64,000 nucleotides of DNA from NCBI RefSeq assembly GCF_004799325.1, contig NZ_SSMD01000003.1, forward strand, positions 62,001-126,000, given 5' to 3'. Every line of letters begins with the position of its first letter. Positions within the stretch are counted from its first letter, which is position 1. Below are positions 24,102 to 55,081 of the stretch, piece by piece. A program made the translations under genes and the position numbers. Below the pieces are notes generated by a model that saw only the letters and a program-made list of their open reading frames with translations, was not told the DNA's origin and did not search any database. The stretch comes from Thalassobius vesicularis. GTDB taxonomy: Bacteria > Pseudomonadota > Alphaproteobacteria > Rhodobacterales > Rhodobacteraceae.

Positions 24102-25103
<1,002 letters not shown>

Positions 25104-25296
25104 GATGCAACTCCTGAAGCGAATGAATTCGGGGGCCGTATAGCCCCCCAAAGCCGCGTTCGGAAGGTGAAACTTACTACGAAACAAGGGTGTTAGCGCA
25201 AAACCTGTCTGGTTGCGCTAACGATTTGGTGGCAATCGGCCTTGTTCAGCCGGAACCAATGGCTAGATTGGGGGCAACCGAACGGCGAGGTGTGGT

Positions 25297-26259: not shown

Positions 26260-26330
26260 TTTGATTATTGTCAAAACACGGCACGTCGCCGCGTGATAGC
26301 CAAGGCGCGAGACCTACGAAAGGACGCGCC

Positions 26331-27083
26331 ATGGAACGAGCCTCCAGCCTGGATGAGATGCGGACAAGTTTTGGCCGCCAGACGGTAGAGCAGACCGACC
26401 GCCGCGACGAGGTGCAGGCGTTGTTCAACCGCATCGCCCCGCGCTATGACCTGATGAACGACCTGATGAGCTTTGGCACGCACCGGCTGTGGAAACGCAC
26501 GGTGATCCGGCGGGCGCTGGCGCATCTGGGCGCGGTGCCGGGGGCGTTGCTTGACGTGGCCGGGGGCACGGGCGATCTGGCGATTGTGCTGCGCGCGGCC
26601 CAGCCGATGCGGCAGGTCGTGGTCGTGGACCCCTCCGAAGGGATGCTGGAACAGGCCCGTCTGCGCGCGGGCGACACGCTGGATTACGTCCAGGCGCCGG
26701 GCGAGGATCTGCCCTTTCCCGACAATGCCGCGGCGCTGGTCACCCTGTCCTTCGGGCTGCGCAACATGGCCGATCCGGCGCAGGGCCTGCGCGAGGTTGC
26801 CCGGGTGCTGCAACCGGGCGGTCATCTGGTTCTGCTGGAATTTTCCAAGCCAGATCCGTGGTTTGCGCCGTTCTACGGCTTGCATGCGCGCTATGTGATC
26901 CCGCGTCTGGGGGCGATGGTGGCGCAGGATCGCGGCGCCTATCAATACCTGGTCGAGTCGATCGACAAGTTCCCCGCCCGCGCCGAAATGGCGGCTGAAA
27001 TCGCCGCTGCAGGGCTGGAGATGGTCGAGGAGCGCGCCTTTGTCTTCGGCGTCGCCCGGATGCAAATCGCGAGGAAGCCATGA
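26331..27083 (+). CDS. ubiE: UbiE/MenG-type quinone C-methyltransferase
   Basis: A 250-residue class I SAM methyltransferase of the UbiE/COQ5 family. Signature segments are 'VQALFNRIAPRYDLMNDLMS' (about 27-46), the SAM loop 'LLDVAGGTGDLA' near 75 and 'LSFGLRNMADP' near 140. The family methylates demethylmenaquinol and 2-polyprenyl-6-methoxy-benzoquinol. The start at 26331 has AAAGGA upstream. Its stop overlaps the next gene, a MenA-like prenyltransferase, so the pair may act on one quinone. Whether this is the main ubiquinone enzyme or a second copy cannot be told here. Confidence 0.85.
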   Translation: MERASSLDEMRTSFGRQTVEQTDRRDEVQALFNRIAPRYDLMNDLMSFGTHRLWKRTVIRRALAHLGAVPGALLDVAGGTGDLAIVLRAAQPMRQVVVVDPSEGMLEQARLRAGDTLDYVQAPGEDLPFPDNAAALVTLSFGLRNMADPAQGLREVARVLQPGGHLVLLEFSKPDPWFAPFYGLHARYVIPRLGAMVAQDRGAYQYLVESIDKFPARAEMAAEIAAAGLEMVEERAFVFGVARMQIARKP

Positions 27084-27970
27084 CCGCCACTCAGACCCGA
27101 TCCCGACTGGCGGCGCTGCCCAAACCCGCGCTGTGGATCATCGCGGCACGGTTCAAAACCGTCAGCCTGTCGCTGATGCCGGTGCTGGCCGGAAGTTGGC
27201 TGGCGGCGGGGCAGGGGACATGGCGGGTGGACGTTTCGCTGGCGGCGATGCTGGCGGCGGCGGCGATCCAGGTGGGGACGAACCTTTGGAATGACGCGGC
27301 GGATGCGGCGAGCGGGGTGGACCGTGACGACCGGCTTGGCCCGCCGCGCATGACCGCTTTGGGGCTGCTGGATGGCGCCTCGGTCCGGCGCGGGGCGCTG
27401 GCGGCGTTCGGAATAGCCGTGCTGGCGGGCCTCTATCTGGTGGCCCTTGGCGGCTGGCCGATCATCGCGATCGGGCTGGCGTCGCTGGCCTTTGGCTACC
27501 TCTATTCGATGGGGCCGTTTCCGATGTCCGGCCTGCCGTTCGGAGAGCTGCTGGTCATCCTGTTCTTCGGCCTGGTGGCCGTGTCCGGCACCGCATACCT
27601 ACAAGATGTGGATCCGCTTGCGCCACAGACACTAGCCCTTGGGTTGGTGATCGGGTTGCCCGCGGCGGCCGTTCTGATGCTGAACAACCACCGCGACCGC
27701 GCGCAGGATGCGCGGGCGGGGCGGCGGACGCTGGCTATTCTGCTGGGGCAGACGGGCGCGCGGATGGTGTATTTCGGCCTGCTGTTGGGGGCTTTGGCGC
27801 TGGCCGGGGCGATGTGGCCGGGCTGGACGCTGCTGCCTGCGGGCGCGCTGGCGCTGTGGCTGGGTCATGCGATGTGGCACTGGCCGGTTTCGGCGCGTCT
27901 GAACAGCCTGCTGGCGCAGACGGCGGGGTTCCAGATGCTGCTGCTGGCCGGTGTGGTGACAGCTGGTTAA
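27080..27970 (+). CDS. MenA-like UbiA-family prenyltransferase
   Basis: A 296-residue polytopic membrane protein with about eight helices. Two Asp-rich motifs of the UbiA superfamily are visible: 'NLWNDAADAASGVDRDDR' near residue 73 and 'NNHRDRAQDARAGRRTLA' near residue 197. Their form, with 'LGPPR' after the first, is closer to MenA (1,4-dihydroxy-2-naphthoate prenyltransferase) than to UbiA, chlorophyll synthase or CyoE. It overlaps the ubiE-like gene by four bases. No other men genes are in the window. The acceptor is therefore open. Confidence 0.78.
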   Translation: MTATQTRSRLAALPKPALWIIAARFKTVSLSLMPVLAGSWLAAGQGTWRVDVSLAAMLAAAAIQVGTNLWNDAADAASGVDRDDRLGPPRMTALGLLDGASVRRGALAAFGIAVLAGLYLVALGGWPIIAIGLASLAFGYLYSMGPFPMSGLPFGELLVILFFGLVAVSGTAYLQDVDPLAPQTLALGLVIGLPAAAVLMLNNHRDRAQDARAGRRTLAILLGQTGARMVYFGLLLGALALAGAMWPGWTLLPAGALALWLGHAMWHWPVSARLNSLLAQTAGFQMLLLAGVVTAG

Positions 27971-28058: not shown

Positions 28059-28523
28059 TCAGTTCATCGCGCCGGGGGCCTTGACGGGCAGCGAGAGCGG
28101 AACCTCGCCCGCCTGTTCGAAGATCAGGGTGACGGGGACGGTGGCACCCTCGGTCAGGGGGGTGGTCAGGCCGATCAGCATCAGGTGCAGGCCGCCGGGT
28201 TTCAGAACGGCCTCGCCGCCGGCGGGGATGTCGATCGCCTCGACCCGGCGCATTTTCATCATGCCGTTGTCATGGATGTGGGTGTGCAGCTCGGGTTGGG
28301 TGCAGTTGGGCGAGCTGAAGCCGATCAGCCGGTCCGCGCCCCCACGCGAGCGGATCGTCATGAAGGCGGCCCCGGCCTGGGCGACCTTGGGCGAAGCGCG
28401 GGTAAAGCCGCCGGAGATGTCGAGCGTGTCGGTCTGGGCCTGCTGCGCAAAACCCGGAAGGGCGGGGGCGGCACACAGGGCGGACAGGGACAGCACAGCT
28501 GCGCGGCGGGAGAATGTTCTCAT
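28059..28523 (-). CDS. PCu(A)C periplasmic copper chaperone
   Basis: A 154-residue exported protein with a signal peptide ('FSRRAAVLSLSAL...', twin Arg present, cleavage after about 'GFAQQ'). It carries the canonical copper site H-x10-M-x21-H-x-M exactly: 'HTHIHDNGMMKM' and, 21 residues later, 'HLM'. Such proteins deliver Cu(I) to CuA or CuB centres. It is divergent from nosZ with a shared FNR-type box between them, so it most likely serves NosZ metallation. The start at 28523 has AGAGG upstream. Confidence 0.92.
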   Translation of the reverse strand: MRTFSRRAAVLSLSALCAAPALPGFAQQAQTDTLDISGGFTRASPKVAQAGAAFMTIRSRGGADRLIGFSSPNCTQPELHTHIHDNGMMKMRRVEAIDIPAGGEAVLKPGGLHLMLIGLTTPLTEGATVPVTLIFEQAGEVPLSLPVKAPGAMN

Positions 28524-28583
28524 TTCAACCTCTGATCTGGAACGTGGTTGGCCGCAGCTTTTGCCGAAAGGAACATCCACGCC

Positions 28584-28739: not shown

Positions 28740-31025
28740 ATGGTGAATACCATTCAGAAACGCCTGCTTATGGCGACCACTGCGGTCGGCATGCTGGCAA
28801 CGGGGGCCTCTGCCGAGACGCTGGACCAAGTGATGGCCCGCCGCGGGCTGACCCAACAAGACTTGGTTTCCGCGGCAAAGACTTATACGCCGACCGGCGG
28901 CCGCGATGAATTCATTGTCTTCTCGTCCGGCGGTCAGTCGGGCCAGATCATGGTGTATGGCGTTCCGTCCATGCGCATTCTGAAATACGTTTCGGTGTTT
29001 ACGCCCGAACCCTGGCAAGGCTACGGGTTCGACGAAGAGTCGAAGGCCATCCTGGAACAGGGCAAGGTCGACGGCCGCGAAATCCACTGGGGCGACACCC
29101 ACCACCCGGCCATCACCGAGACCAACGGTGACGTGGACGGCGAATACCTGTTCATCAACGACAAATCCGCGCCCCGTGTGGGCGTTGTGTCGTTGCATGA
29201 CTTCGAGACCCAGCAGATCGTCGTGAACCCGATCCTGCAATCCGAACACGGCGGCACCTTCGTGACCCCGAACTCGGAATACGTGATCGAAGCCGCGCAA
29301 TATCCGGGTGTTCTGGGCCGTGGCTACGCGCCGCTGAGCCAGTTCAACGAGAAGTTCCGGGGCGCTGTCACCTATTGGAAGTTCAACCGCGAGAAGGGCC
29401 GCATCGAGCCGGAAAACTCGTTCTCGCTGGAACTGCCGCCGTATAGCCAGGACTTGTCGGACGCCGGTAAGCTGGTGTCGGATGGCTGGTCGTTCACCAA
29501 CTCGTTCTGCGCCGAGCGTTACGTCGGCGGGATCGAAAGCGGTCGCCCGCCGTTCGAGGCTGGCTGCTCGCAGAACGACACCGACTATCTGCACATCATC
29601 AACTGGAAGAAGGCCGAAGAGGTCTACAAGGCCGGCAAGGTCACCATGATCAATGACCACCCGGTCATCACCATGGAAACCGCGATCGCCGAAGGCCTGG
29701 TCTATCTGGTCGCCGAACCGAAATCGCCGCACGGCGTGGACGTGTCGCCGGATGGTAAATACATCATCGTCGGTGGCAAGCTGGACACGCAGGGCTCGGT
29801 CTACTCGTTCGAGAAGATCATGGCCGCTGTCGACGCCAAGAAGTTTGCGGGCACCGACCCCTATGGCATCCCCGTGATCGCCATGGAGGATGCGCTCCAC
29901 AAGCAGGTTCCGCTGGGTCTGGGTCCGCTTCATACCCAGTATGACAGCAAGGAATGCGTGGTCTACACCTCGCTGTACGTGGACAGCCAGGTTGCCAAGT
30001 GGGACTATTGCGAAGGCAAGGTTCTGGACAAGATCTCGATCCACTACAACATCGGCCACCTGGTGGCGATGGAAGGCGAGACCGTCAATCCGAAGGGCAA
30101 GTACCTGATCTCGCTCAACAAGCTGGCAATCGACCGGTTCAACCCGGTGGGTCCGCTGCACCCGCAAAACCACCAGCTGATCGACATCTCGGGCGACAAG
30201 ATGGAGCTGCTCTATGACATGCCCGTCCCGCTGGGCGAGCCGCACTACGCCACCGCGATCTCGGCTGAAAAGCTGAAGCCGCTGGTGCGCTACAAGTACG
30301 GCACCAACAGCCGGACCGGCGAACGCCACGAGGGCGCAGTGCGTCCGGGCCAAGAGCGCATCGAGCGTGACGGCACCAACGTCAAGGTCTACATGACCGC
30401 GATCCGGTCGCACTTCACCCCCGAGATCATCGAGGTCAACGAAGGCGACACCGTCGAGTTCATCATCACCAACTCGGAACGGGCCGAGGACGAAACCCAC
30501 GGTTTCGCCGTCTCGACCTATGACGTGAACCTGTCGCTGGAACCGGGCAAGACCGCAACCGCGAAGATCGTCGCCGACAAACCCGGTGCGTTCTCGTTCT
30601 ACTGCACCGAGTTCTGCTCGGCGCTGCACCTGGAGATGACCGGCTTCCTGATGGTCAAACCCAAGGGCTACGTCGATGCTGACGCGGGTGCCGTGACCGA
30701 GGGTCAGGCCTACACCAAGGCCGATTACGACAAGCAGGTCGCCAACAACGTGGCCACGCAGGAAGTGATCGACTCGGTGGTCGTCTACATCACCCAGCGC
30801 AACTATGACGCCTTCCCCGAAGTCGTCAGCCTGGTGGAAGACGCGACCGACCAGCTGAACTTTGCCGCTGAAGCCAAGGCCAAGTCCGAGGAAGCAGCCG
30901 CCAAGGAAGACTGGCAGAACGCGACCCTGTGGGCCGGCCAGTGGTGGCAGTACCAGGTGAAGGCCGCGGATATCGGTCTGCGCGCCAAGACCTTCCTGGA
31001 CGAGCACGGCGCCGTCAAGAAGTAA
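28740..31025 (+). CDS. nosZ: Nitrous oxide reductase, Sec-dependent (clade II) type
   Basis: NosZ reduces N2O to N2 in the periplasm. The 761-residue precursor has a plain Sec signal peptide (residues 1-25, cut after 'TGASA') with no twin-Arg motif, unlike clade I NosZ. The seven-blade propeller carries CuZ ligands, for example 'WGDTHHP' (His121/122). The CuA domain has C-x3-C-x3-H-x2-M as 'CTEFCSALHLEM' (Cys622, Cys626, His630, Met633). A helical extension of about 120 residues rich in Ala, Glu and Lys follows CuA, without haem motifs. AGAGGG precedes the ATG at 28740. Downstream genes complete a clade II-type cluster. Confidence 0.96.
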   Translation: MVNTIQKRLLMATTAVGMLATGASAETLDQVMARRGLTQQDLVSAAKTYTPTGGRDEFIVFSSGGQSGQIMVYGVPSMRILKYVSVFTPEPWQGYGFDEESKAILEQGKVDGREIHWGDTHHPAITETNGDVDGEYLFINDKSAPRVGVVSLHDFETQQIVVNPILQSEHGGTFVTPNSEYVIEAAQYPGVLGRGYAPLSQFNEKFRGAVTYWKFNREKGRIEPENSFSLELPPYSQDLSDAGKLVSDGWSFTNSFCAERYVGGIESGRPPFEAGCSQNDTDYLHIINWKKAEEVYKAGKVTMINDHPVITMETAIAEGLVYLVAEPKSPHGVDVSPDGKYIIVGGKLDTQGSVYSFEKIMAAVDAKKFAGTDPYGIPVIAMEDALHKQVPLGLGPLHTQYDSKECVVYTSLYVDSQVAKWDYCEGKVLDKISIHYNIGHLVAMEGETVNPKGKYLISLNKLAIDRFNPVGPLHPQNHQLIDISGDKMELLYDMPVPLGEPHYATAISAEKLKPLVRYKYGTNSRTGERHEGAVRPGQERIERDGTNVKVYMTAIRSHFTPEIIEVNEGDTVEFIITNSERAEDETHGFAVSTYDVNLSLEPGKTATAKIVADKPGAFSFYCTEFCSALHLEMTGFLMVKPKGYVDADAGAVTEGQAYTKADYDKQVANNVATQEVIDSVVVYITQRNYDAFPEVVSLVEDATDQLNFAAEAKAKSEEAAAKEDWQNATLWAGQWWQYQVKAADIGLRAKTFLDEHGAVKK

Positions 31026-31033
31026 GCAATGTT

Positions 31034-31057
31034 GGGCGGCAGCATCAGCTGCCGCCC
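31034..31057 (+). promoter_or_regulatory. Intercistronic hairpin after nosZ
   Basis: A perfect 10-bp stem GGGCGGCAGC-ATCA-GCTGCCGCCC lies 9 bases after the nosZ stop. No T-run follows, so it may protect the nosZ mRNA 3' end or attenuate transcription rather than end the operon. Confidence 0.55.
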
Positions 31058-31099
31058 GCATCCCCCTGCAAACATTCACTTATTCGCAAGGAAATCGCC

Positions 31100-31750
31100 A
31101 TGCGACCGACCACCAAACTCCTTCTGGCTGCCGTGATGGCGCTGGCCGCGCTGCCGGCTGCGGCTGATCCGGTGAAGGACGGCAAGAAGGTGTACATGAC
31201 CAAGACCTGTATGGCCTGTCACGGTAAGGGCGGCGGAAAGCCGGTCATGACTTACCCCGCGCTGGCCGGACAGAACGAGAAATACCTGCAGCAGCAGTTG
31301 CAGGACATCAAGGCAGGCAAGCGCGTCGGCTCGGTCGATCCGGCAACGGGGCACCCGTTCGTCCAGGGCATGACCGATATCATGCACCTTGTGGATGAGA
31401 CCGACATCAAGAACGTCGCCAAGTACCTGTCCGCGCAAGACCCCGCCGCCCCCAAACCGCTGGACCCCGCGCCCTCGGCCGAGGAGCTGGCTGCCGGTGA
31501 GGCCGCGTACAAGGGGCTGGGCTGCAAGGCCTGCCACGGCAATGACGGGCTGAAGCCCTCGAACAAGGCGTATCCGTTCCTGGCCGGTCTGAACCGCGAT
31601 TACCTGATCCGCGCCATGACCGAGATGCGCGAAGGCGAGCGCACCAACGGCAAGTCCAAGATGATGTTCGGAACGATCAAGAAAGCAAGCGACGAAGATA
31701 TCGCCGCGATGGCCACTTGGCTGTCGCAGGTGGATCGCTCGGCCAAGTGA
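31100..31750 (+). CDS. Dihaem cytochrome c (NosC1-like)
   Basis: A 216-residue exported cytochrome with a Sec signal peptide (residues 1-22, 'ALPAAA'). Two haem motifs, CMACH (Cys37-His41) and CKACH (Cys142-His146), lie in two similar halves of about 100 residues, each with a downstream Met that could be the sixth ligand. It resembles cytochrome c553-type pairs found after clade II nosZ. It would pass electrons from the quinol side to NosZ. The ATG at 31100 has AAGGA upstream. Confidence 0.92.
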   Translation: MRPTTKLLLAAVMALAALPAAADPVKDGKKVYMTKTCMACHGKGGGKPVMTYPALAGQNEKYLQQQLQDIKAGKRVGSVDPATGHPFVQGMTDIMHLVDETDIKNVAKYLSAQDPAAPKPLDPAPSAEELAAGEAAYKGLGCKACHGNDGLKPSNKAYPFLAGLNRDYLIRAMTEMREGERTNGKSKMMFGTIKKASDEDIAAMATWLSQVDRSAK

Positions 31751-31766
31751 GATGAAAGGAATAACC

Positions 31767-32477
31767 ATGAAAAAGGCACTTCTCTCTACCGTGTTCCTGG
31801 CGCTGGCGATGCCGGTGATGGCCGGTGAAAAAGTCGACACCAGTTCCTGGAACCAGGGTGGCGGCGAGCAGGACGAGGCCCTGCACCTGACCCCGGATCA
31901 CCAGAACGGGATCGACACCTACGAGGTGTGCTCGGCCTGTCACCAGCTGAACGGCTGGGGTCTGACAGACGGTACCTTCCCGCAGATCGCGGGGCAGCAC
32001 TTCAACGTCACCATCAAGCAGTTGGCCGACATCCGCGCGCTGAACCGCGACAACCCGACCATGTACCCGTTCGCACTGCCGTCGGAAATCGGCGGGGCGC
32101 AGTCCATCGCGGACGTGGCGGCCTATATCGAAAAACTGCCGATGAACCCGGAAAACGGCGTTGGTGCCGGGGATGATCTGGAGCTGGGCGAAAAGCTGTA
32201 CAAGGACAACTGCGTGCGCTGCCACGGCGAGACCGGCGAGGGCAACAACGAGAAGTTCTATCCGCGTATCCACGGCCAGCACTACAACTACCTGGTCCGC
32301 CAGTACCAGTGGATCAAGGAAGGCAAGCGCCGCAACGCCAACCCGGACATGGTGCAGCAGATCCAGACCTTTACCGACCGCGATACCAAGGCTGTGCTGG
32401 ACTATGTCTCGCGTCTGCGTCCGCCGGCCGAGATGGTGGCAGAACCCGGTTGGGTGAACCCCGATTTCGACTGGTAA
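31767..32477 (+). CDS. Second dihaem cytochrome c (NosC2-like)
   Basis: A 236-residue exported cytochrome with a signal peptide ('LALAMPVMA' then 'GEK'). Haem motifs are CSACH (Cys55-His59) and CVRCH (Cys149-His153). The halves are related to those of the preceding cytochrome, so the two genes may come from duplication. The ATG at 31767 has AAAGGA at good spacing; an ATG at 31752 is less likely. Role inferred: electron transfer to NosZ. Confidence 0.92.
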   Translation: MKKALLSTVFLALAMPVMAGEKVDTSSWNQGGGEQDEALHLTPDHQNGIDTYEVCSACHQLNGWGLTDGTFPQIAGQHFNVTIKQLADIRALNRDNPTMYPFALPSEIGGAQSIADVAAYIEKLPMNPENGVGAGDDLELGEKLYKDNCVRCHGETGEGNNEKFYPRIHGQHYNYLVRQYQWIKEGKRRNANPDMVQQIQTFTDRDTKAVLDYVSRLRPPAEMVAEPGWVNPDFDW

Positions 32478-32485
32478 ACCCGGTT

Positions 32486-32512
32486 GCGCGGGCGGCGGTT
32501 TCCCGCCCGCGC
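32486..32512 (+). promoter_or_regulatory. Intercistronic hairpin after the cytochrome genes
   Basis: GCGCGGGCGG and CCGCCCGCGC form a perfect 10-bp stem with a 7-base loop, 8 bases after the cytochrome stop. As after nosZ, there is no T-run. Confidence 0.5.
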
Positions 32513-32542
32513 CAAACTTCTAAACAATAAGGATTTGTTCCC

Positions 32543-33724
32543 ATGAACAAGGCCTCGCCCGACCGCCGCGGTATCACGTACCGCGTACTGACCCTTGTTG
32601 CCGTTTTCCTGATCGGCTTTGCCTTTGTCTCGCCGGGCTGGTGGGTGTCGCTGACCGCCCCCAACTATCCCGAGGCGACCTTCCCGCAGGGGATCCGCAT
32701 CCTGTTCCACATGGACTCGGTCCGTAACGGCTGTGACATCCGCGCCAGCCAGGAAGTCGAAGAGACCGAGGCGCTGGATTGCGTCCACGAGATGGACACG
32801 ATCAACCACTATGTCGGCATGTACCCGATTGCCTCGGGCGGGCCGGTGGAAAAGGCGTTCTCGCCCTTCCTGTTCGCGATGATCGTGGTGATGGCGCTGG
32901 CCTTTGCCGCCCCCGGACGCACCGCGCGGGTCGTGGTGTCGGTCGCCGGGTATGGTGCGATCGGGGCCTGGATGTGGCTGGCTGTTTATGGCGAAAATGG
33001 CGTGTCATTGCACACGACGGGCTATCTGAAGGGTCTGGTCGTGTCGCTGGGGCAGGACGGATCCGAAAAGGTGGATGACAGCAACCTGTCGCCCATCGTG
33101 AAGATGCTGCGCGAGTCGCTGGCCGAAAGCGAGGCCAAGGAGCAGGCAGAGGTCGCCGAGACCGACGACCGCCAGGCGCTGTTGGACAACCTGCGGGCCA
33201 ACTACAACATCGACAACAACAAGCTGCCGGCCGCCCAGCAAGAGGCGTGGAACGGCTCGATCATGCAGGTGTTCAAGTGGCACTACTCGAAGTCGCTGGC
33301 GCGCTGGTTCAACGAGCCCGAGCGCAACGAGCCGCTGGTCGCCACGATGACGACGGTTGCGAATATCCTGTTCGTCGCGGTGCTGGGCTTCATGGCGCTG
33401 ATGGTTGCCGCCGCGCTGCGCGCCGACAAGATCTGGTACTGGCTGCTGGTGCTGGCGCCGCTGGCGCTGCCGGTGGGCTTTCTGGCGGAATATGCCGGCT
33501 GGCTGTGGTGGTACGGCCATAGCCTGAACGAGATGGGCGCCTTCACGCTGAAACCGTTCATGCCGACCGTGCTGGGCGACGGCAAGGTGGCGCAGTTCAC
33601 CACCCACTCTTACCCGGCGCAGGGGTTCTACCTGATGCTGGCCTCTTCGGCGCTGCTGGCGCTGGCCGCGCTGATCCGCGCCAAGCAGCTGCGCCTGTCC
33701 GGTGATCAAGCAAAACGGATGTAA
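32543..33724 (+). CDS. Polytopic membrane protein of the nos cluster (NosB-like position)
   Basis: A 393-residue membrane protein with about six helices (near 14-33, 108-127, 130-150, 267-293, 298-321, 362-380). The first external loop has two Cys (64 and 80) and 'NHYVGMYPIASGG'; a large polar region (about 155-260) rich in Glu, Gln and Asp lies between helices 3 and 4. It has no haem, Fe-S or ATP motif. Its place between the cytochromes and nosD matches the membrane protein often seen in clade II clusters and called NosB in some species. That link rests on position, not on a motif. Confidence 0.75.
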   Translation: MNKASPDRRGITYRVLTLVAVFLIGFAFVSPGWWVSLTAPNYPEATFPQGIRILFHMDSVRNGCDIRASQEVEETEALDCVHEMDTINHYVGMYPIASGGPVEKAFSPFLFAMIVVMALAFAAPGRTARVVVSVAGYGAIGAWMWLAVYGENGVSLHTTGYLKGLVVSLGQDGSEKVDDSNLSPIVKMLRESLAESEAKEQAEVAETDDRQALLDNLRANYNIDNNKLPAAQQEAWNGSIMQVFKWHYSKSLARWFNEPERNEPLVATMTTVANILFVAVLGFMALMVAAALRADKIWYWLLVLAPLALPVGFLAEYAGWLWWYGHSLNEMGAFTLKPFMPTVLGDGKVAQFTTHSYPAQGFYLMLASSALLALAALIRAKQLRLSGDQAKRM

Positions 33725-33727
33725 GCC

Positions 33728-35011
33728 ATGCGTCTGATCGCGCTGATCCTGATCCTGTGCGGTTCCTGGGGGGTGGCCTTGGCCGAAACCCTGCAGGAAC
33801 GGCTGGACGCCGCCCCCGAAGGCGCCGAGATCGTGCTGGAGCCGGGTGTGCATATGGGCCCGCTGGTCATCACCAAGTCGGTGGTGCTGGACGGGCAGGG
33901 CGTGGCCGTCATCGACGGCGGTGGGCAGGGCACGGTCGTGACCCTGGCCGCCAGCGGGGCCACGCTGAAGAACCTGACCATCCGCAACTCGGGCCGGCTG
34001 CACAACAAGGTCGATGCCGGGCTGCGGATCAAGGGCAACTTCAACGTGATCCGCGACGTGCGGATCGAAAACAGTCTGTTCGGCCTGGACCTGTCGCAGG
34101 CCAGCAATAACGTGATCCGGCGCAACTACATCAGCTCGAAGGACATGCCGCTGGAGATGCGCGGGGATTCCGTGCGGATCTGGTACTCGGACGACAACGT
34201 GTTCGAGCATAACCACATCGAGCACAGCCGCGACATCGTGATCTGGTACAGCGAAGGCAACAAGCTGCAGGACAACCGCATCCAGCACGGCCGCTATGGC
34301 ATCCACTTCATGTACGCCCACAAGAATTTCGTCGAACGGAACGAGATTTCGGACTGCGTGGTGGGCGTATTCATGATGTACGCCAACGACATCACCGTGC
34401 GCGGCAACCAGATCCTGCGGGCCTGGGGCGCGTCGGGGATGGGCGTGGGGTTCAAGGAGACCTCGGGCGCGATCGTCGAGGACAACCTGATCCTGGGCAA
34501 CGCGGTGGGCATCTACCTGGACCCGTCGCCGTGGGACCCGGACCGCACCAACGAGTTCCGCCGCAACCAAATCGCCTATAACGGCGTCGGGGTGGAGTTT
34601 CACACCGATTGGGTGGGCAACAACTTCGCCGAGAACAACTTCCTGTCGAACTTCACGCAAGTGTCGGTGCGCGGGCGCGGGACGGCGCTGCGCGAGGGCT
34701 GGAACGGCAATCACTGGGACGATTACGCCGGGCTGGACCGTGATGGCGACGGCGTGGGCGACACCCCGCACGAGATTTTCATGTATGCCGACCGGCTGTG
34801 GATGGACCTGCCTCCGGCGGCGTTCTTCCGGGGCGGGCTGGCCCTGTCGGCGCTGGATTTCGTCGAGCGTCTGGCCCCCTTCACCGAACCGCGCCTGCTG
34901 GTGCGCGAAGAGCGCCCGCTGGTCGACATGGTGGACCACGCCGCCGCGCGCACGGAAACCGCGCCCCAGGCAGGCAAACCGAAATCCGCATTGGAGCTGC
35001 TGACACAATGA
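33728..35011 (+). CDS. nosD: NosD periplasmic copper-assembly protein
   Basis: A 427-residue exported protein with a signal peptide ('ILCGSWGVALA'). The body is a right-handed parallel beta-helix of CASH/NosD repeats with recurring 'N-x-(I/V)' turns ('NVIRRNYIS', 'NKLQDNRIQ', 'NFVERNEIS'). 'HFMYAHKN', 'GNHWDDYAGLDRDGDGVGD' and 'DRLWMDLPP' are NosD marks. NosD works with NosF and NosY in building the CuZ cluster. The stop overlaps the nosG start (ATGA). Confidence 0.95.
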   Translation: MRLIALILILCGSWGVALAETLQERLDAAPEGAEIVLEPGVHMGPLVITKSVVLDGQGVAVIDGGGQGTVVTLAASGATLKNLTIRNSGRLHNKVDAGLRIKGNFNVIRDVRIENSLFGLDLSQASNNVIRRNYISSKDMPLEMRGDSVRIWYSDDNVFEHNHIEHSRDIVIWYSEGNKLQDNRIQHGRYGIHFMYAHKNFVERNEISDCVVGVFMMYANDITVRGNQILRAWGASGMGVGFKETSGAIVEDNLILGNAVGIYLDPSPWDPDRTNEFRRNQIAYNGVGVEFHTDWVGNNFAENNFLSNFTQVSVRGRGTALREGWNGNHWDDYAGLDRDGDGVGDTPHEIFMYADRLWMDLPPAAFFRGGLALSALDFVERLAPFTEPRLLVREERPLVDMVDHAAARTETAPQAGKPKSALELLTQ

Positions 35012-35775
35012 GCAAGACCGCAGACACTCCGAAGAAACCGCGGCTGACCCGGCGCGAGCTGGAACGCCGCCGGATGCTGATCCGCACGATGGCATTGGGC
35101 GTGGCCGCGGTCTCGGCCGGGCTGATCGGCTGGTATCCGGTTTATAAGAAGGTGTTCGACCGGCTGCGCCCGCCCGGTGCGCTGGACGAGGACGAATTCC
35201 TGGCCGCCTGCATCAAATGCGGCCAATGCGTGCAGGTCTGCCCGGTCGAGGCGATCAAGCTGGCCGATGGCGACGAAGGTTACGGGCTGGGCGTGCCCTA
35301 TATCGACGCGCGGGCGCAGGCCTGTGACTTTTCTTGCGACGCCGTGCAATGCGTGCTGGCCTGCCCGACGGGCGCGCTGAGCCACCTGATCGCCAAGAAG
35401 GAAGAGGTCACGATGGGGTTCGCCCGTCTGGCCCGCCCCGAGGCGTGCCTGGCGATGAAGGGGCTGGGCTTCACCGGTCTGGCGCGCGGCGACGATTTCC
35501 CCGGCCTGCTGCGCTATGAGGAAATCGACCGCTGGGAGCCGCAACCCGTGGCCAGCCACCCCTACGAGCTGGAGATCTGCGATCTGTGCGTGCGCGAATG
35601 CCCGATCGAGGGGGCGATCACGCTGGAACCCTTGTCCATTGATTATCAGGACAAACGCCGCGTGCCGACGATCCACAAATCCTGCGTCGGCTGCGGCACC
35701 TGCGAGATGATCTGCCCGGCCGAACCGGCAGCCATCGTCATCGACACCGAACTGGCATTGGAGGCATCGGCATGA
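35008..35775 (+). CDS. nosG: NosG, exported-type 4Fe-4S ferredoxin (NapG-like)
   Basis: A 255-residue polyferredoxin with an N-terminal hydrophobic segment (about 25-43) after an Arg-rich stretch ('RRELERRRM'), possibly a Tat-type anchor. Four Cys clusters are seen: 'CIKCGQCVQVCP' near 68, 'CDFSCDAVQCVLACP' near 110, 'CDLCVRECP' near 195 and 'CVGCGTCEMICP' near 230. It resembles NapG. With NosH it would form a quinol dehydrogenase feeding periplasmic cytochromes, replacing NosR, which is absent. Confidence 0.92.
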   Translation: MSKTADTPKKPRLTRRELERRRMLIRTMALGVAAVSAGLIGWYPVYKKVFDRLRPPGALDEDEFLAACIKCGQCVQVCPVEAIKLADGDEGYGLGVPYIDARAQACDFSCDAVQCVLACPTGALSHLIAKKEEVTMGFARLARPEACLAMKGLGFTGLARGDDFPGLLRYEEIDRWEPQPVASHPYELEICDLCVRECPIEGAITLEPLSIDYQDKRRVPTIHKSCVGCGTCEMICPAEPAAIVIDTELALEASA

Positions 35776-36749
35776 AGTGGTTCCTGCACAAACTGGCGAT
35801 GATGTTCGGCGCCGATCCGCGCCGCCCAAGCGCGGACGAGGAAACCGACGCCGCCCGCGCCATGAAGGCGCTGAAGAAAACCCCCGATGAGGTCGCCAAG
35901 CGCAAGGCCCTGATCGCGGACGAGCATGAGAACCCGCAGTTCAGCCATAAATGGCGGAACTTGCGCTGGGTCTCGATCATCGTGATCAACGCGCTGTTCG
36001 TGATCTCGTTCGCGTGGGACGTGCAGCTGGTCGAAGGCTCGATGAGTGCGTCGCGGTTCCTGGGCTTCCACATGGCCGACCCGAACGCGGCGCTGCAGGT
36101 GATGCTGGCCTTCAAAGAGGTGATGCTGAACCTGGTCATCGGCACCGTCACCGTGATCGCGCTGTGGTGGATCGTGGGTGGGCGGGCGTTCTGCGCCTGG
36201 GCCTGCCCCTATCACCTGCTGGCCGAATGGGCCGAGGCGATTCACCTGTTCCTGGCCCGTCGCGGCTGGGTCAAGGACCACCCGTTCCACCGCGGCCTGC
36301 GCCTGGTGCTGTGGGTGATCTTCATGATCCTGGCCTTTGCGACCGGCTATACCGTGTTCGAATACATCAACCCGGTGGGCATCGTCAGCCGCGCGCTGAT
36401 CTACGGGCCGACCGTGGCGATCATCTGGGTGATTTTCCTGCTGGGGGTCGAGATTTTCTTCTCGCGCCGGTTCTGGTGCCGCTACGTCTGCCCGATTGGC
36501 CTGACTTATGGCATCACCGGGGCGGTCGCACCGATCCAGATCAAATACGATTTGGAAAAATGCCTGCATGAAGGGGAATGCCGGGCCGTGTGTCTGGTGC
36601 CCCATGTGCTGGAGATCACCAAGATGGGCTATGCGCAGGACGAGGTGGAATTCATCGGGCCAGACTGCACGCGGTGCGGGCTGTGCGTGGATGTCTGCCC
36701 GCAGAACGCGCTGAGCTTTGCCGTGCGTGGGCTGGACAAGATTATCTGA
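35772..36749 (+). CDS. nosH: NosH, membrane 4Fe-4S quinol dehydrogenase (NapH-like)
   Basis: A 325-residue membrane protein with about four helices (near 64-84, 115-135, 175-195, 212-230). Cytoplasmic Cys motifs of the NapH/NosR type follow helices: 'FCAWACPYHL' near 138 and 'WCRYVCPIGL' near 236. C-terminal ferredoxin clusters are 'CLHEGECRAVC' and 'CTRCGLCVDVCP'. It overlaps nosG by four bases, and the pair is the expected quinol-oxidising module. In Wolinella the equivalent module is thought to use menaquinol. Confidence 0.92.
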   Translation: MKWFLHKLAMMFGADPRRPSADEETDAARAMKALKKTPDEVAKRKALIADEHENPQFSHKWRNLRWVSIIVINALFVISFAWDVQLVEGSMSASRFLGFHMADPNAALQVMLAFKEVMLNLVIGTVTVIALWWIVGGRAFCAWACPYHLLAEWAEAIHLFLARRGWVKDHPFHRGLRLVLWVIFMILAFATGYTVFEYINPVGIVSRALIYGPTVAIIWVIFLLGVEIFFSRRFWCRYVCPIGLTYGITGAVAPIQIKYDLEKCLHEGECRAVCLVPHVLEITKMGYAQDEVEFIGPDCTRCGLCVDVCPQNALSFAVRGLDKII

Positions 36750-36760
36750 GGAGACGCGTC

Positions 36761-37624
36761 ATGATCACCATCGACCGCCTGACCAAACGCTTTGACCGCC
36801 GCGCCGTGCTGGACGAGCTGACGCTGAGCATCGACGCGGGCGACCGGATCGCTCTGATCGGTTCGAACGGGGCGGGTAAGACCACGCTGTTCCGCTGCTT
36901 GCTGGGGCATTACGGGCACGGTGGCTCGGTCGGGTTCGAGGGCACGTCGGGCAAGCGCCGCGATGCGCGGGCGCTGGCGCGGATCGCCTTTGTGCCGCAG
37001 CTGCCGCCGCCCCTGCGGATGCCGGTGGGCGAGTTGCTGACCTTTGCCGAGAAGGGCGCAGGCGCCAGTCGCGCCCGTATGGACGAGATCGCGGGCAAGC
37101 TGGGCATTGATCTGGACGAGGTGCGCCGCCGCCCGTTCTATCGCCTGTCGGGCGGGCAGAAGCAGAAGATCCTGGTGACGGTCGCGCTGGGGCGCGATGC
37201 CGATCTGATGATCTTTGACGAACCGGCCGCCAACCTGGACCCGGCCGCACGGGCGGTGTTCATCGACCTGCTGGCGGAACGGCGCGATGCCTCGATGCTG
37301 ATCGCCAGCCACCGGCTGGAGGAGGTCGCCCCGCTGGTCAACCGCGTGATCGAGCTGGATCGCGGCCGCGTCGTGCTGGACGACAACCTGCGTGATCGTT
37401 TGCGCGCGGGCGACTTCCGTCAGGCGCTGATCGTGCTGAGCGCGCCGCACGCCCCGCTGACCCAGGCACTGGAGGGGTGGGGTTTTCGCTCTGACGCCAC
37501 GGGCACGCGGTTTTCCGGCCCGGTCCCCAGCGCCGAGACGTTTCGCTTCCTGGGCCTGCTGGCCCGCTATGGCAGCCTGATCGAGCAAATGACGCTGGAG
37601 CAGGTGCCGGAAAGGGTGTTCTGA
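36761..37624 (+). CDS. nosF: NosF, ABC transporter ATPase
   Basis: A 287-residue ATPase with Walker A 'GSNGAGKTT' (about 34-42), signature 'RLSGGQKQK' near 128, Walker B 'LMIFDEPAANLDP' near 150 and the switch His in 'ASHRLEE'. The C-terminal 80 residues are the NosF-type extension. It would drive the NosDFY complex with NosY in the membrane, supplying sulfur or assembly work for CuZ. GAGGAG precedes the ATG at 36761. Confidence 0.94.
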   Translation: MITIDRLTKRFDRRAVLDELTLSIDAGDRIALIGSNGAGKTTLFRCLLGHYGHGGSVGFEGTSGKRRDARALARIAFVPQLPPPLRMPVGELLTFAEKGAGASRARMDEIAGKLGIDLDEVRRRPFYRLSGGQKQKILVTVALGRDADLMIFDEPAANLDPAARAVFIDLLAERRDASMLIASHRLEEVAPLVNRVIELDRGRVVLDDNLRDRLRAGDFRQALIVLSAPHAPLTQALEGWGFRSDATGTRFSGPVPSAETFRFLGLLARYGSLIEQMTLEQVPERVF

Positions 37625-37625
37625 C

Positions 37626-38120
37626 ATGTGCCGCCACCACCACCATACCCGCCGCGCCACGCTGGCCCTGCTGGCCGCCACGCCGTTCCTGTCCGCCTGC
37701 AAGGCCGAGGCCGCCGGCCCCGAGGACATCCGCTGGGGCCGCGAAGTGTGCGAAATTTGCGGCATGATCATCTCGGATCCGGGCTATGCCTCGGAAATCC
37801 GGGGGGGACCGGACCGTAAGCTGGTGAAATTCGACGATATCGGCGATGCGATCAACTGGCTGAAGGAACAGCCGTGGAAGGACGACCCGAGCATCGAGTT
37901 CTGGGTGCGCGACTATGGCACCCGGCAGGATTGGCTGGACGCGCGGCAGGCGCATTACCAGCGGGGCGTGATCTCGCCCATGGATTACGGGTTCGCGGCG
38001 CTGTCGGCACCGTCCACGGATTCGATCAGTTTCGAAGAAATGCGCCGCGATGTGCTGGCCAGGGGGTTGACCTGGCGCTGCATTCCGGGCGGAGAAGACG
38101 GGGAGGGACATAAAGGATGA
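37626..38120 (+). CDS. nosL: NosL, copper-chaperone lipoprotein
   Basis: A 164-residue lipoprotein with lipobox 'FLSAC' (lipidated Cys25). The Cu(I)-binding region 'CEICGMIISDPGYA' lies near residues 46-60, and 'RKLVKFDDIGD' follows. NosL hands copper to the NosZ assembly machinery. The N-terminus has four consecutive His residues (4-7), which would stay with the cleaved signal. The stop overlaps nosY. Confidence 0.93.
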   Translation: MCRHHHHTRRATLALLAATPFLSACKAEAAGPEDIRWGREVCEICGMIISDPGYASEIRGGPDRKLVKFDDIGDAINWLKEQPWKDDPSIEFWVRDYGTRQDWLDARQAHYQRGVISPMDYGFAALSAPSTDSISFEEMRRDVLARGLTWRCIPGGEDGEGHKG

Positions 38121-39010
38121 ACGCCATGAGCACCGACCCGTTTACGCCACTGCCCAGCACCCGTAGTGCAGGCCCCGTGCCGCGCACCGGCGTGTCGCTG
38201 ATCCTGCGGCTGGAGCTGTCGGAATCGCTGCGCTCGCGCTGGTTCCATTTCTATTCGTTGGTCGTGGTGGGGCTGATGCTGCTGCTGATCACCACCGGCA
38301 TTTCCGAAAGCCGCGTGCTGGGCTTTACCGGCCTGTCGCGCCTGCTGGTCAGCTATATCCAGATCGCGATGGCGGTGCTGCCGCTGTTCATCATCGTGAC
38401 GACCGCGCGGTCCATGGTGGGTGACCGTGAGGCGGGCAACCTGGAATACATGCTGGCCTTTCCGGTCTCGCTGACGACCTGGTACTGGGGGCGGTTCCTG
38501 GCGCGGCTGGTGCTGGTGCTGGCCCCGGTGGGCGTGGCGCTGATCGTCGCCGGTGTTTACGGCATGGCGATGGGCCATGCGGTGCCGTGGTGGCATATCG
38601 GCCTGTATTCGGGGCTGATCGCCGCGCTGGCGACGTGTTTCCTGGGGCTGGGCTTCCTGATCTCGGCCTGGTCGCGGTCCACCGAGGTGGCGCTGGGGGC
38701 CAGCCTGCTGATCTGGCTGCTGCTGGTGGCGCTGTTGGACCTGTTGCTGCTGTCGGTGCTGATCCAGCAGCGGGTGTCCTCGGACCTGGTGATCGGGATT
38801 GCGCTGGCGAACCCGTTGCAGGCGTTCCGCACCGCCTCGATGATCCTGTTCGATCCGCAGCTGATCCTGCTGGGGCCGTCGTCCTATGTCATCCTCGATA
38901 ACTTCGGGGTGAATGGCTATGTCGCCTGGGCGATGGGCTATCCGGTGGCGCTGGGTTTGGCGCTGGCAGGGCTGGGGTTCTGGCGCTTCCGCAAAAGCGA
39001 TCTGGTCTGA
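38117..39010 (+). CDS. nosY: NosY, ABC transporter permease
   Basis: A 297-residue membrane protein of the ABC-2 type with about six helices. Typical features are 'ARSMVGDREAGNLEYMLAFPVS' (the coupling region near residue 95) and 'ANPLQAFRTASM' near 235. It would form the membrane part of NosDFY. It ends exactly where the convergent TlpA-like gene ends. Confidence 0.94.
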   Translation: MNAMSTDPFTPLPSTRSAGPVPRTGVSLILRLELSESLRSRWFHFYSLVVVGLMLLLITTGISESRVLGFTGLSRLLVSYIQIAMAVLPLFIIVTTARSMVGDREAGNLEYMLAFPVSLTTWYWGRFLARLVLVLAPVGVALIVAGVYGMAMGHAVPWWHIGLYSGLIAALATCFLGLGFLISAWSRSTEVALGASLLIWLLLVALLDLLLLSVLIQQRVSSDLVIGIALANPLQAFRTASMILFDPQLILLGPSSYVILDNFGVNGYVAWAMGYPVALGLALAGLGFWRFRKSDLV

Positions 39011-39544
39011 TCAGAGCAGAGATGTAAGCCACGACAGGGTGGGGGCGTCATCCCAGACGGCCTCGCCCGAGACGAGGGAGAGCGTGTGGCTGTCCCGACC
39101 GATCACGAAGACCGAGGGCAACAGCTCGGTATCCAGCACGGCCTTCAGGTTTTCGCCGTCCCCCATCAGCACAGGCAGGTTGTCGATGCCCAGACGGGTG
39201 TAGAACTTGCGCACGGCGTTCGGGCCGCGCCAGTCAAAGGCCAGCGGCAGCACGGTGGGCCCCTCGGGGCCCAGTTGCGCGGCAAGGCGCGACAGGGTGG
39301 GCAGTTCGCGCTGGCAGGGCACGCACCACGGCCCCCAGAGCGGCAGGACCAGCACCGAGCCGGCCCAGTCGGACAGCGGGCGGGTCTGGCCCTCAGCATC
39401 CGTCAGTTTCAGCAAAGAGGCGTCGCGCGGGGGCTGCACCGGGCGGGCGCGGCTGGCGGCAGAGGCAGCGCCCTCCGCAAACGCAAAATCCGGCCGGGCG
39501 CAAAGCGCGCCCAGACCGGCCACAAGCCCGCGACGAGAGATCAT
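39011..39544 (-). CDS. TlpA/ResA-like periplasmic thioredoxin
   Basis: A 177-residue exported thioredoxin-fold protein with a signal peptide ('RRGLVAGLGALC', double Arg near the start). The redox motif is W-C-V-P-C near residue 75 in 'PLWGPWCVPCQRELP'. TlpA-type proteins keep CuA Cys ligands and SCO partners reduced. The start at 39544 overlaps the SCO stop (TGATG), so SCO and TlpA are co-translated. Role in NosZ CuA maturation is inferred. Confidence 0.88.
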   Translation of the reverse strand: MISRRGLVAGLGALCARPDFAFAEGAASAASRARPVQPPRDASLLKLTDAEGQTRPLSDWAGSVLVLPLWGPWCVPCQRELPTLSRLAAQLGPEGPTVLPLAFDWRGPNAVRKFYTRLGIDNLPVLMGDGENLKAVLDTELLPSVFVIGRDSHTLSLVSGEAVWDDAPTLSWLTSLL

Positions 39545-40158
39545 CACCCGTTGCCGCCTTCGACGGCCATGATGCTGCGCATGTCGGCGGCCATATCCTC
39601 GGCGGCGACGCCATGCGGGTAGCGTTTGATCAGCATCCCCGCCGGGTCCAGAAACGCCATCGAGGCGGTGTGATCCATCGTATAGAGATCCGGGCGCGCC
39701 GGGTCCGAGATGTTTTTCTGGTAGCGCGCGTTGAACACTTTGACCATGTGGTCGGTATAGGCCTTTGGCCCGCGCAGCCCGACGATCCGCTTGTCGAAGA
39801 AGGCCAGGTATTCCTGCAGCAGCTTGGCGGTGTCCTGTTCGGGATCGACGGTGACGAAAACCGGGGTCAGCTTGTCGGCATCCTCGCCCAGCAGCTCCAG
39901 CGCGTCGGCCATGGTGGACAGCGAGGTCGGGCAGACGTCAGGGCAGCCGGTATAACCGAAATAGACCAGCAGGAAACGGCCCTGGAAATCCTCGTTCGTG
40001 ACGGCGTTGCCATAGAGGTCTTCCATCATGTAGCGGCGGGGGCGTTCGTCGTTCATCGCCTCGGCCGCGCCCGGTTCCAGATCGGCGTGCTGGGCCCAGG
40101 CATAGGGGGCGGCGAGCGCCGCGAATGCGGTGGTCAGGAACAGGCGGCGGTTGAACAT
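39544..40158 (-). CDS. SCO1/SenC copper-delivery protein
   Basis: A 204-residue SCO protein with an N-terminal export signal ('RRLFLTTAFAALAAPYAWAQ'). The copper site is complete: C-x3-C in 'FGYTGCPDVCPTS' near residue 82 and His in 'YTMDHTASMAFLD' near residue 168. SCO proteins load Cu into CuA centres of cytochrome oxidase or NosZ. Its place at the end of the nos cluster points to NosZ. The ATG at 40158 has AAGGA upstream; an FNR-type box lies 54 bases further on. Confidence 0.93.
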   Translation of the reverse strand: MFNRRLFLTTAFAALAAPYAWAQHADLEPGAAEAMNDERPRRYMMEDLYGNAVTNEDFQGRFLLVYFGYTGCPDVCPTSLSTMADALELLGEDADKLTPVFVTVDPEQDTAKLLQEYLAFFDKRIVGLRGPKAYTDHMVKVFNARYQKNISDPARPDLYTMDHTASMAFLDPAGMLIKRYPHGVAAEDMAADMRSIMAVEGGNG

Positions 40159-40211
40159 GATCGGTCCTTTCTTGGCTTGGGCAGACCTTACGCGCAAAGA
40201 AACCCGACGCC

Positions 40212-40285: not shown

Positions 40286-41146
40286 ATGACTGCCCTTCTT
40301 GCCGCCTTTTTGCCCGTCGCGATGATGATCCTGATGTTCTCGTTGGGTTTGCGATTGTCGCTGCGCGATGTCGCTGTGGAATTTCGAAACCCGCGTGCCC
40401 TGCTGATCGGGCTGGCGGTGCAGGTGATCGGCCTGCCGCTGCTGGCGTGGATGGTGGGCGTGGCCGCGCTGCTGCCGCCGGTGATGCTGGCGGGGCTGTT
40501 GCTGGTTGCGGCGTCCCCCGGGGGGGTGACCTCGAACTACGCGGCGCTGCTGATGCGGGGCAAGGTGGGGCTGTCGGTCAGCATGACGCTGGTGACCAGT
40601 CTGGCCGCGCCGATCACGCTGCCGCTGGTGTTGTGGCTGACCGGGGCCGCCGATCTGGATGGCGGCGGGCTGTGGAAAATCTCGCTTGGGATGACGGCGG
40701 TCGCGCTGGTGCCGATGGGGCTGGCGATGGGGCTGCGCCGGGTGTGGCCGGGGATCGTGACCGGTCTGGTCCGCGTGGTCGATCCGCTGGCGCGGGCGCT
40801 GTTCGTGCTGATGGTGATCGCCACCTTTGCGCAGAACTGGGACGCGATGGGTGAAACGTTCGGCCAGGTCGGGCTGCCGGTCATTATGCTGGCGATCCTG
40901 GTGCCGTGCTTTGGCTTTGGCGTGGCCTGGGCGATGGACCTGGGCGGGCCCGAGCGCCGGACGGTGATCACCGAGGCCAGCCTGCAGAACGTGGCGATCA
41001 CGATCTTTGTCGCGGGCAAGCTGCTGGGCATGCCCGAGCTGGCGATCCCCGGGCTGATCTATGCGGTGATGATGAACGTGGTGATCTTGGTGATGATCGG
41101 CATCGTCGCCCTGCGCGCCGGAGGGTTCCAGCGCACTGCCGCCTGA
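40286..41146 (+). CDS. BASS family sodium-dependent transporter
   Basis: A 286-residue membrane protein with about nine to ten helices, related to the bile acid:sodium symporter family. The family segment 'LLLVAASPGGVTSNYAALLM' (short for the crossover helix) is visible near residues 72-92, and 'ITEASLQNVAITIF' near 228 is the second crossover. Bacterial members carry organic anions such as pantoate or pyruvate; the substrate here is unknown. A TAGGAG site precedes the ATG. Confidence 0.88.
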   Translation: MTALLAAFLPVAMMILMFSLGLRLSLRDVAVEFRNPRALLIGLAVQVIGLPLLAWMVGVAALLPPVMLAGLLLVAASPGGVTSNYAALLMRGKVGLSVSMTLVTSLAAPITLPLVLWLTGAADLDGGGLWKISLGMTAVALVPMGLAMGLRRVWPGIVTGLVRVVDPLARALFVLMVIATFAQNWDAMGETFGQVGLPVIMLAILVPCFGFGVAWAMDLGGPERRTVITEASLQNVAITIFVAGKLLGMPELAIPGLIYAVMMNVVILVMIGIVALRAGGFQRTAA

Positions 41147-54958: not shown

Positions 54959-54983
54959 TTGAGTATTTTCAATCAGAAAGAAG
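54959..54983. repeat. Second copy of the GAGTATTT...AGAAAGAAG element
   Basis: GAGTATTTTC followed by AATCAGAAAGAAG resembles the left half of the palindromic element at 19090. The right half is absent here. Confidence 0.45.
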
Positions 54984-55081
54984 ACAAGGTTGAGGTGAAG
55001 GAGCGGGCGGCGTGCGTTCGGGTGCGGGGGTGTTAACCTTTGCGGCTCAGTCTGGTGGGCAGATCAGGCAAGAGGTGGCGC

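Follow-up and report, generated by a model that had tools for sequence, protein, structure and literature searches.

The clade II (Sec-type) nitrous oxide reductase (nos) gene cluster of the alphaproteobacterium Thalassobius vesicularis lies within a conserved unit that also carries ubiE, menA and a gene for a transporter of the bile acid:sodium symporter (BASS) family. This unit is found in a 64-kb stretch of contig NZ_SSMD01000003.1 (hereafter the window, to which coordinates without a contig name refer), part of a 3.79-Mb genome in 46 contigs. With moderate confidence, we read these neighbors as a menaquinone-finishing (salvage) cassette that would feed the nos cluster through NosG and NosH (NosGH). 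More tentatively, we propose that, in Pseudomonadota, clade II nos clusters often come with their own quinone module: men genes where the host makes menaquinone and, where it cannot, a reduced menA-ubiE salvage cassette, often with a BASS gene. Such ubiquinone-based bacteria would then rely on naphthoates from their neighbors to respire N2O.

Late menaquinone genes are linked to clade II nos genes

Two genes on the + strand precede nosZ: a second ubiE/menG-type quinone methyltransferase (26268..27083, likely start 26325) and a menA-type 1,4-dihydroxy-2-naphthoate (DHNA) prenyltransferase (27080..27970). The methyltransferase scores 234 bits on TIGR01934 (cut-off 158) and falls below the specific UbiE and MenG equivalogs; the other UbiE copy of this genome is at position 95880 of contig C4 (283 bits). 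The prenyltransferase, a member of the UbiA family, scores 132 bits on TIGR00751 (cut-off 102) and lies below the stricter NF004751 (213 vs 264). Its only PDB match by sequence is UBIAD1, and it groups with the MenAs of men operons in a tree built without the MenA of genome G064. On the other side of the nos genes is the BASS gene (40286..41146, + strand), whose product scores 84 bits on PF01758 (cut-off 24.3), is below the TIGR00841 cut-off (128 vs 326) and has BASS-family transporters as its PDB matches. These and the other gene calls rest on homology, not on a filter of open reading frames (ORFs).

We determined how often these genes occur together using profile searches with model cut-offs in 394 Rhodobacteraceae genomes. 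Five pass the clade II NosZ cut-off (T. vesicularis, G003, G016, G064 and G225, from five genera; hereafter the family carriers). MenA is over its cut-off in nine, all five family carriers among them, and in each of these it lies <1 kb upstream of nosZ (Fisher p 1.6e-9 for the association, not corrected for shared descent). The family carriers each have two UbiE copies over cut-off, compared with a single copy in each of the four genomes without clade II nos that were tested. Across a class-wide sample of 385 Alphaproteobacteria genomes, only three have MenA over cut-off, our genome being one. The set ubiE-menA-nos-TlpA-SCO-BASS is kept in all five family carriers, and the unit is present as well in Defluviimonas nitratireducens MCCC 1A06955 and Maritimibacter sp. 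HL-12. An earlier note on this DNA had described the nos cluster as self-standing; the conserved unit instead spans ubiE (26268) to the BASS gene (41146).

The linkage extends beyond this family. When named genomes were scanned, at least 545 relatives were confirmed, the best 80 of which were kept as loci, many ending at contig ends or at the 10-kb flank; 23 of these best 80 contain a clear MenA. Two loci with weak MenA (L109, 295 bits; L119, 270 bits) and ten MenA-like matches of lower score (78-169 bits) were not counted as MenA. Gene order differs between lineages: ubiE-menA precedes nosZ in Rhodobacteraceae, L111 and L113; both genes follow nosY in Paramagnetospirillum, Rhodoferax and Thauera linaloolentis; menA follows nosY with ubiE convergent in Rhodoplanes and Bradyrhizobium; and in L115, ubiE-menA-BASS runs away from nosZ. 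UbiE was seen in 19 of the 22 cases of nos-linked MenA in genomes lacking MenD (not in L103, L105 or L173). This recurrence in different orders favors a shared function. Relative to three relatives, the ratio of nonsynonymous to synonymous substitution rates (dN/dS) is 0.17-0.21 for menA, indicating purifying selection, 0.22-0.24 for ubiE and 0.09-0.14 for nosZ. Among plasmid sequences, the best MenA match is at 45%, with no record covering 80% of the query.

A second, more distant group of MenA-like prenyltransferases is also found near clade II nos genes in Rhodocyclales and related betaproteobacteria. Its members lie downstream of the nos genes (L135, L140, L146, L148, L150, L158, L166 and L169), and the three that were scanned are all below the MenA cut-off.

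Full and reduced forms of the menaquinone pathway

Four loci from beta- and gammaproteobacteria (L116, from Sulfuricella, and L117, L122 and L125) have nos genes bracketed by men genes, with menB, menA and menC upstream and ubiE and menE downstream. The menB gene was seen in three of the four; that of L116 would fall beyond the locus end. In L125, MenB scores 430 bits (cut-off 343), MenC 138.5 (131) and MenA 193 (102), and MenE, shortened by the locus end, 286 (cut-off 330).

MenD is over cut-off in all four men-bracketed genomes, compared with none of the five family carriers and none of the 17 named genomes where nos-linked MenA stands without linked menB, menC or menE. MenD scores 410-460 bits in the eight of 37 named genomes that have it, and the 22 MenA-bearing genomes without linked menB, menC or menE contain only weaker MenD relatives, at most 87 bits. 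L102, where MenA and BASS are both present, is outside this test. For the futalosine route, MqnA and MqnD gave no match in nine genomes, the five carriers included (control positive in 4 of 14), a search limited to those nine and not covering the named genomes. Judged by these profile searches, the reduced-form genomes have late menaquinone genes and no recognized route to the naphthoate. This gene pattern fits what would be expected of an organism that makes menaquinone by DHNA salvage.

A BASS-family transporter often accompanies the reduced form

In the stretch read, a BASS gene is found near 17 of the 22 nos-linked menA genes of MenD-lacking genomes: those of the five family carriers and of L095, L096, L097, L100, L103, L105, L115, L144, L161, L162, L167 and L173. 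Distances between BASS and MenA range from adjacent to ~14 kb. The BASS genes of L162 and L167 are fragments at the locus end, which were counted as BASS and are too short for the BASS tree. In L098, BASS is present in a locus that begins only 240 bases before nosZ, where a MenA further upstream would not be visible. By contrast, BASS was seen in none of the four men-bracketed loci (p 0.008 against 17 of 22, not corrected for relatedness). Because Thauera linaloolentis has ubiE, menA and BASS in a row, this contrast is not only one of alpha- versus betaproteobacteria.

The pairing of menA and BASS is also found apart from clade II nos. MenA is present in four family genomes that lack clade II nos genes, three of which have menA directly beside BASS and in the same direction. 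This pair is close to narGH-like genes in G241 and to nirN and nor-like genes in G352 (names from ORF sequence); in G305, MenA is present and no BASS was seen within 20 kb. In their respective trees, the MenAs of all four genomes and the BASS proteins of these three group within the Rhodobacteraceae clades. On plasmids, BASS matches that span most of the protein reach at most 32% in the 40 records listed out of 47, and of ten plasmid BASS comparators, the eight annotated there include none with menA within 1.5 kb. From this association we propose the BASS protein as a DHNA importer.

BASS genes can also occur in other nos settings. In two loci of Azonexus hydrophilus (L143 and L217), a BASS gene follows the nos cluster and narGH-like genes lie beyond it; MenA was not seen in the stretches read.

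A palindrome precedes ubiE in most Rhodobacteraceae carriers

The window contains a perfect TTGA-N6-TCAA palindrome at 26261..26274 (+ strand), 64 bp before the aligned ubiE start, which we take from the motif to be of the FNR/NNR regulator class. A perfect copy stands 64-72 bp before ubiE in seven of ten Rhodobacteraceae carriers, with three different spacers, and is absent from the canonical ubiE of G076 (one control). The window has two such sites against 0.44 expected, a count reached in 9 of 100 shuffles. The second is at 54959-54972, ~70-80 bp before an ORF at 55040.

A proposed route to NosZ and its alternatives

Together, these findings suggest a route from imported precursor to N2O. 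Under low oxygen or with N-oxides present, an FNR/NNR-type regulator would switch on ubiE-menA. A naphthoate precursor, most likely DHNA, would be imported, most likely via the BASS protein, and prenylated by MenA, after which the second UbiE would methylate the product to menaquinone. NosGH would oxidize the menaquinol and pass electrons to the dihaem cytochromes and on to NosZ, which would reduce N2O to N2. NosL, NosDFY, PCuAC and SCO presumably serve copper supply.

Parts of this route have precedents. Two routes to NosZ have been proposed, from the bc1 complex via cytochrome c or, in clade II, through NosGH with NosBC2 and NosC1 (PMC11539149). The different electron route expected in the earlier note agrees with the presence of NosGH and two dihaem cytochromes, as far as gene content goes. 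In Streptococcus agalactiae, menA is reported to be part of the cyd operon, other menaquinone genes are missing and demethylmenaquinone (DMK-10) is made from DHNA (PMC6030563). Lactiplantibacillus plantarum, described as having an incomplete DHNA pathway, has been tested with DHNA supplied (PMC8837199).

Several observations weigh against this route. BASS was not seen in five of the 22 MenA stretches (L101, L108, L111, L113 and L153, the last ending 164 bases after menA), and it occurs without MenA in five other loci, some in incomplete stretches. BASS-family transporters have diverse substrates, and the gene evolves faster than its neighbors (dN/dS 0.39-0.51). Linked BASS proteins form one clade within Rhodobacteraceae and not beyond, and may therefore have been recruited more than once. 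The genome-wide precursor search covered MenD, MqnA and MqnD only. Three of the ten Rhodobacteraceae carriers have no perfect palindrome within 350 bp of ubiE, two of these having a perfect site before nosZ instead. Outside the family, a perfect site before ubiE or menA is absent from all 24 stretches compared (21 genomes), and ten of these have one before nosZ; the palindrome before ubiE is thus a feature of Rhodobacteraceae only. Q-10 is the quinone reported for family members (PMC11092380). Finally, 12 of the clade II genomes tested for MenD show no clear MenA in the stretch read, and eight of these lack MenD too (MenA elsewhere in those 12 was outside the search), which indicates that clade II nos probably does not always need menaquinone.

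These last genomes, together with the lack of a palindrome before ubiE or menA outside the family, would also be expected if ubiE and menA had merely hitch-hiked as remnants of a donor's men operon, with ubiquinol electrons reaching NosZ via NosGH or bc1. We consider this unlikely, since the genes are under purifying selection, the palindrome is kept in most family carriers, the gene orders differ across lineages and the MenA-BASS pair is kept without clade II nos. Slightly less plausible to us is that menaquinone is made from scratch by an unrecognized or highly diverged pathway, with MenA and UbiE as its last steps and BASS in an unrelated role. The four beta- and gammaproteobacterial relatives with men genes around nos and the narrow span of the genome-wide searches favor such a pathway, and the large difference in MenD scores between genomes argues against it.

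Alternatively, the product of MenA and UbiE might be another quinone, derived from a different aromatic acid and used in N2O respiration or some other anaerobic respiration. UbiA-family enzymes vary in their aromatic substrate, a naphthoate pathway of known type was not seen, and the distant prenyltransferase group also lies near nos in Rhodocyclales. The T. vesicularis MenA nonetheless passes TIGR00751 and groups with men-operon MenAs, and we regard this explanation as improbable. We continue to prefer salvage of an imported naphthoate, at the strength given at the outset.

The nos cluster and its distribution

The nos genes form a complete Sec-type (clade II) cluster at 28740-39010, all on the + strand and in the order given by the earlier note. 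First is nosZ (28740..31025), whose product scores 869 bits on the Sec-dependent model TIGR04246 (cut-off 625) and only 395 bits, below cut-off, on the twin-arginine translocation (Tat) model TIGR04244 (cut-off 625). Its N-terminus, MVNTIQKRLLMATTAVGMLATGASAE, lacks a twin arginine, the Sec assignment being read from the letters without a signal predictor. Two dihaem cytochrome c genes of nosC type follow (31100..31750, with CMACH and CKACH, and 31767..32477, with CSACH and CVRCH), each product matching PF00034 in two stretches and carrying two CXXCH motifs. The next gene (32543..33724) encodes a nosB-like membrane protein with no Pfam or NCBIfam family match, which has homologs at the same position in many related loci and which we presume from its position to be nosB. 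Then come nosD (33728..35011; TIGR04247, 388 bits, cut-off 300), nosG for a NapG-like Fe-S protein (35008..35775; 143 and 136 bits on NapG/MauM models, below their cut-offs of 269 and 179) and nosH for a NapH-like membrane Fe-S protein (35772..36749; TIGR02163, 243 bits, cut-off 213). The cluster ends with nosF, an ATP-binding cassette (ABC) ATPase gene (36761..37624; PF00005, 81 bits), nosL for a copper chaperone (37626..38120; PF05573, 27.9 bits, cut-off 24) and nosY for an ABC permease (38117..39010; PF12679, 71 bits). The genes that mark a clade II cluster, nosB, nosG, nosH and cytochrome c genes, are thus all present, nosB by position and homologs only. As the earlier note had observed, nosR and nosX are not in the cluster, a statement that concerns the cluster only, as no genome-wide search for either was made. 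A profile search of the contigs found a single nosZ, so there is no second copy to make this cluster redundant.

Across 30 aligned clade II NosZ, residues H121, H122, H170, H331, H398, H440 and H502, as well as H587, C622, C626, H630 and M633, are invariant; we take these to be the CuZ and CuA ligands. After the CuA motif, the protein has a C-terminal extension of ~128 residues (residues 642-761 at 30663-31022), without a haem motif. All 80 named clade II loci have such an extension, of 125-134 residues, as do the window and the other four family carriers; it is absent (9-11 residues) from 25 NosZ below the clade II cut-off and from Thermomicrobium. AlphaFold2 predicts three helices in it (660-685, 693-721 and 725-755), and the N2O reductases of the PDB, found by sequence, align with this NosZ only up to residue 643.

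Between menA and nosZ, on the - strand, is a PCu(A)C copper chaperone gene (28059..28580, likely start 28523; PF04314, 121 bits), which among the other family carriers compared was not found in G003. Downstream of nosY, also on the - strand, are genes for a TlpA-like thiol-disulfide protein (39011..39547), kept in all five family carriers, and an SCO1/SenC copper protein (39544..40197; PF02630, 142 bits). The whole block is bracketed by gap (24102-25187) and tkt (41216-43234), both on the - strand; these may once have been neighbors, with the block inserted between them. Its G+C content (0.646) is like that of the rest of the window (0.640) and hence gives no sign of recent foreign origin.

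The rarity of such clusters in the family, expected from the earlier note, was borne out by the five carriers among 394 genomes. Another 95 family genomes have a long match below cut-off (404-472 bits), as clade I NosZ give, and G076, the sole congener sampled, is also below the clade II cut-off. Among the best 80 of at least 545 named relatives, seven are titled Rhodobacteraceae or genera within it: Defluviimonas nitratireducens, Sedimentimonas flavescens, Sinirhodobacter sp., two Maritimibacter and two metagenome-assembled genomes (MAGs). A NosZ tree of 91 rows, in which six clade I rows served as outgroup, was built by a quick method with support from the Shimodaira-Hasegawa-like approximate likelihood ratio test (SH-aLRT) only; L099, being the G064 locus again, was omitted. 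The window falls within a single group made up of the 11 Rhodobacteraceae clade II rows (SH-aLRT 100), apart from the clade I rows, consistent with the clade II assignment. Nearest to the window are Sedimentimonas, Sinirhodobacter and Defluviimonas, and the rows next to this group are Rhodoplanes, Bradyrhizobium sp. Y36, a Hyphomicrobiales MAG and Siculibacillus (SH-aLRT 98). The only long-branch warning concerned the Thermomicrobium row (L054). The scan and tree together show that the cluster is rare in Rhodobacteraceae and ordinary in Pseudomonadota. No close relative of this NosZ was found on a plasmid, the best match being at 53%, in Thermomicrobium.

Denitrification context

The earlier note had raised the possibility of N2O scavenging without full denitrification, which the nitrite reduction genes in this genome do not support. 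A cd1 nitrite reductase gene (NirS-type; 396 bits on Cytochrom_D1) is on contig C16, and two further cytochrome-d1-domain genes are on C6, which from sequence and position we presume to be of NirF and NirN type, with a neighboring nnrS. No NirK is over cut-off in the genome. The search for nor genes was less clear-cut: no NorB is among the COX1 matches in the 46 contigs, the only two of which read from their scores as aa3- and cbb3-type, compared with NorB-type matches of 241-257 bits in the four other family carriers. C16 is only 5786 bases long, and its end falls ~330 bases before nirS, on the side where, in G016, a norC-like gene starts ~1.5 kb before nirS. A stretch may therefore be missing from the assembly, and the absence of nor is not established. 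That the cluster belongs to an N2O scavenger that does not denitrify, as the lack of NirK and NorB matches might suggest, is very improbable given the NirS-, NirF- and NirN-type genes and the possibility that nor sits in the gap beside nirS.

Beside nirS on C16 is a gene for a NapC/NirT cytochrome fused to an ethylbenzene-dehydrogenase-like domain (L032, 1805-3604), homologs of which adjoin nirS in G016, G064 and G200. In G225, d1-domain (nirS/nirN-like) genes were found as fragments only, one match being interrupted by a stop (L043, C14, ~200919-204298); this nir locus looks degraded or misassembled.

Comparison with known systems

The clade II nos cluster of the Wolinella succinogenes type has the same kinds of genes and the same proposed NosGH-cytochrome route. 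Here, unlike in that type, the two c-type cytochrome genes directly follow nosZ, NosZ ends in an extension that lacks a haem motif, the host family is ubiquinone-based, and ubiE, menA and BASS are within the conserved unit. Closer counterparts are found in Rhodoplanes, Bradyrhizobium sp. Y36, Paramagnetospirillum and Thauera linaloolentis, which have like nos genes, linked menA and ubiE, and no MenD over cut-off. In these four, menA and ubiE are downstream of nosY, unlike here; Thauera and Paramagnetospirillum have BASS after menA, and in Rhodoplanes and Bradyrhizobium no BASS was seen. The men-bracketed loci of Sulfuricella and the beta- and gammaproteobacterial MAGs, with menA and ubiE on either side of the nos operon, differ from ours in having linked menB (three of four), menC and menE as well as a genomic MenD, and in lacking BASS in the stretch read. 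The cydAB-ndh-menA operon of Streptococcus agalactiae is likewise a respiratory operon that includes menA, in a host lacking the earlier menaquinone genes and using external DHNA. It differs in serving oxygen respiration, in a Gram-positive host and with demethylmenaquinone, and the part of that paper cited here does not mention BASS (PMC6030563).

Significance

Among the open PubMed Central papers listed, we found none describing the linkage reported here; subscription literature was not covered, and earlier notice is possible. A figure legend on Candidatus Accumulibacter includes menA among the genes drawn around denitrification loci, and the word "quinone" is not found in the portion of that text available (PMC6446978).

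If salvage operates as we propose, it would explain why a late menaquinone gene is present in so few Alphaproteobacteria. Our finding also makes the quinone that feeds NosGH directly testable. To our knowledge, NosZ is the only well-established biological sink for N2O. The naphthoates of neighboring microbes would then be a cross-feeding control on such a sink, and N2O uptake by some clade II organisms would hinge on a vitamin-like compound made by others.

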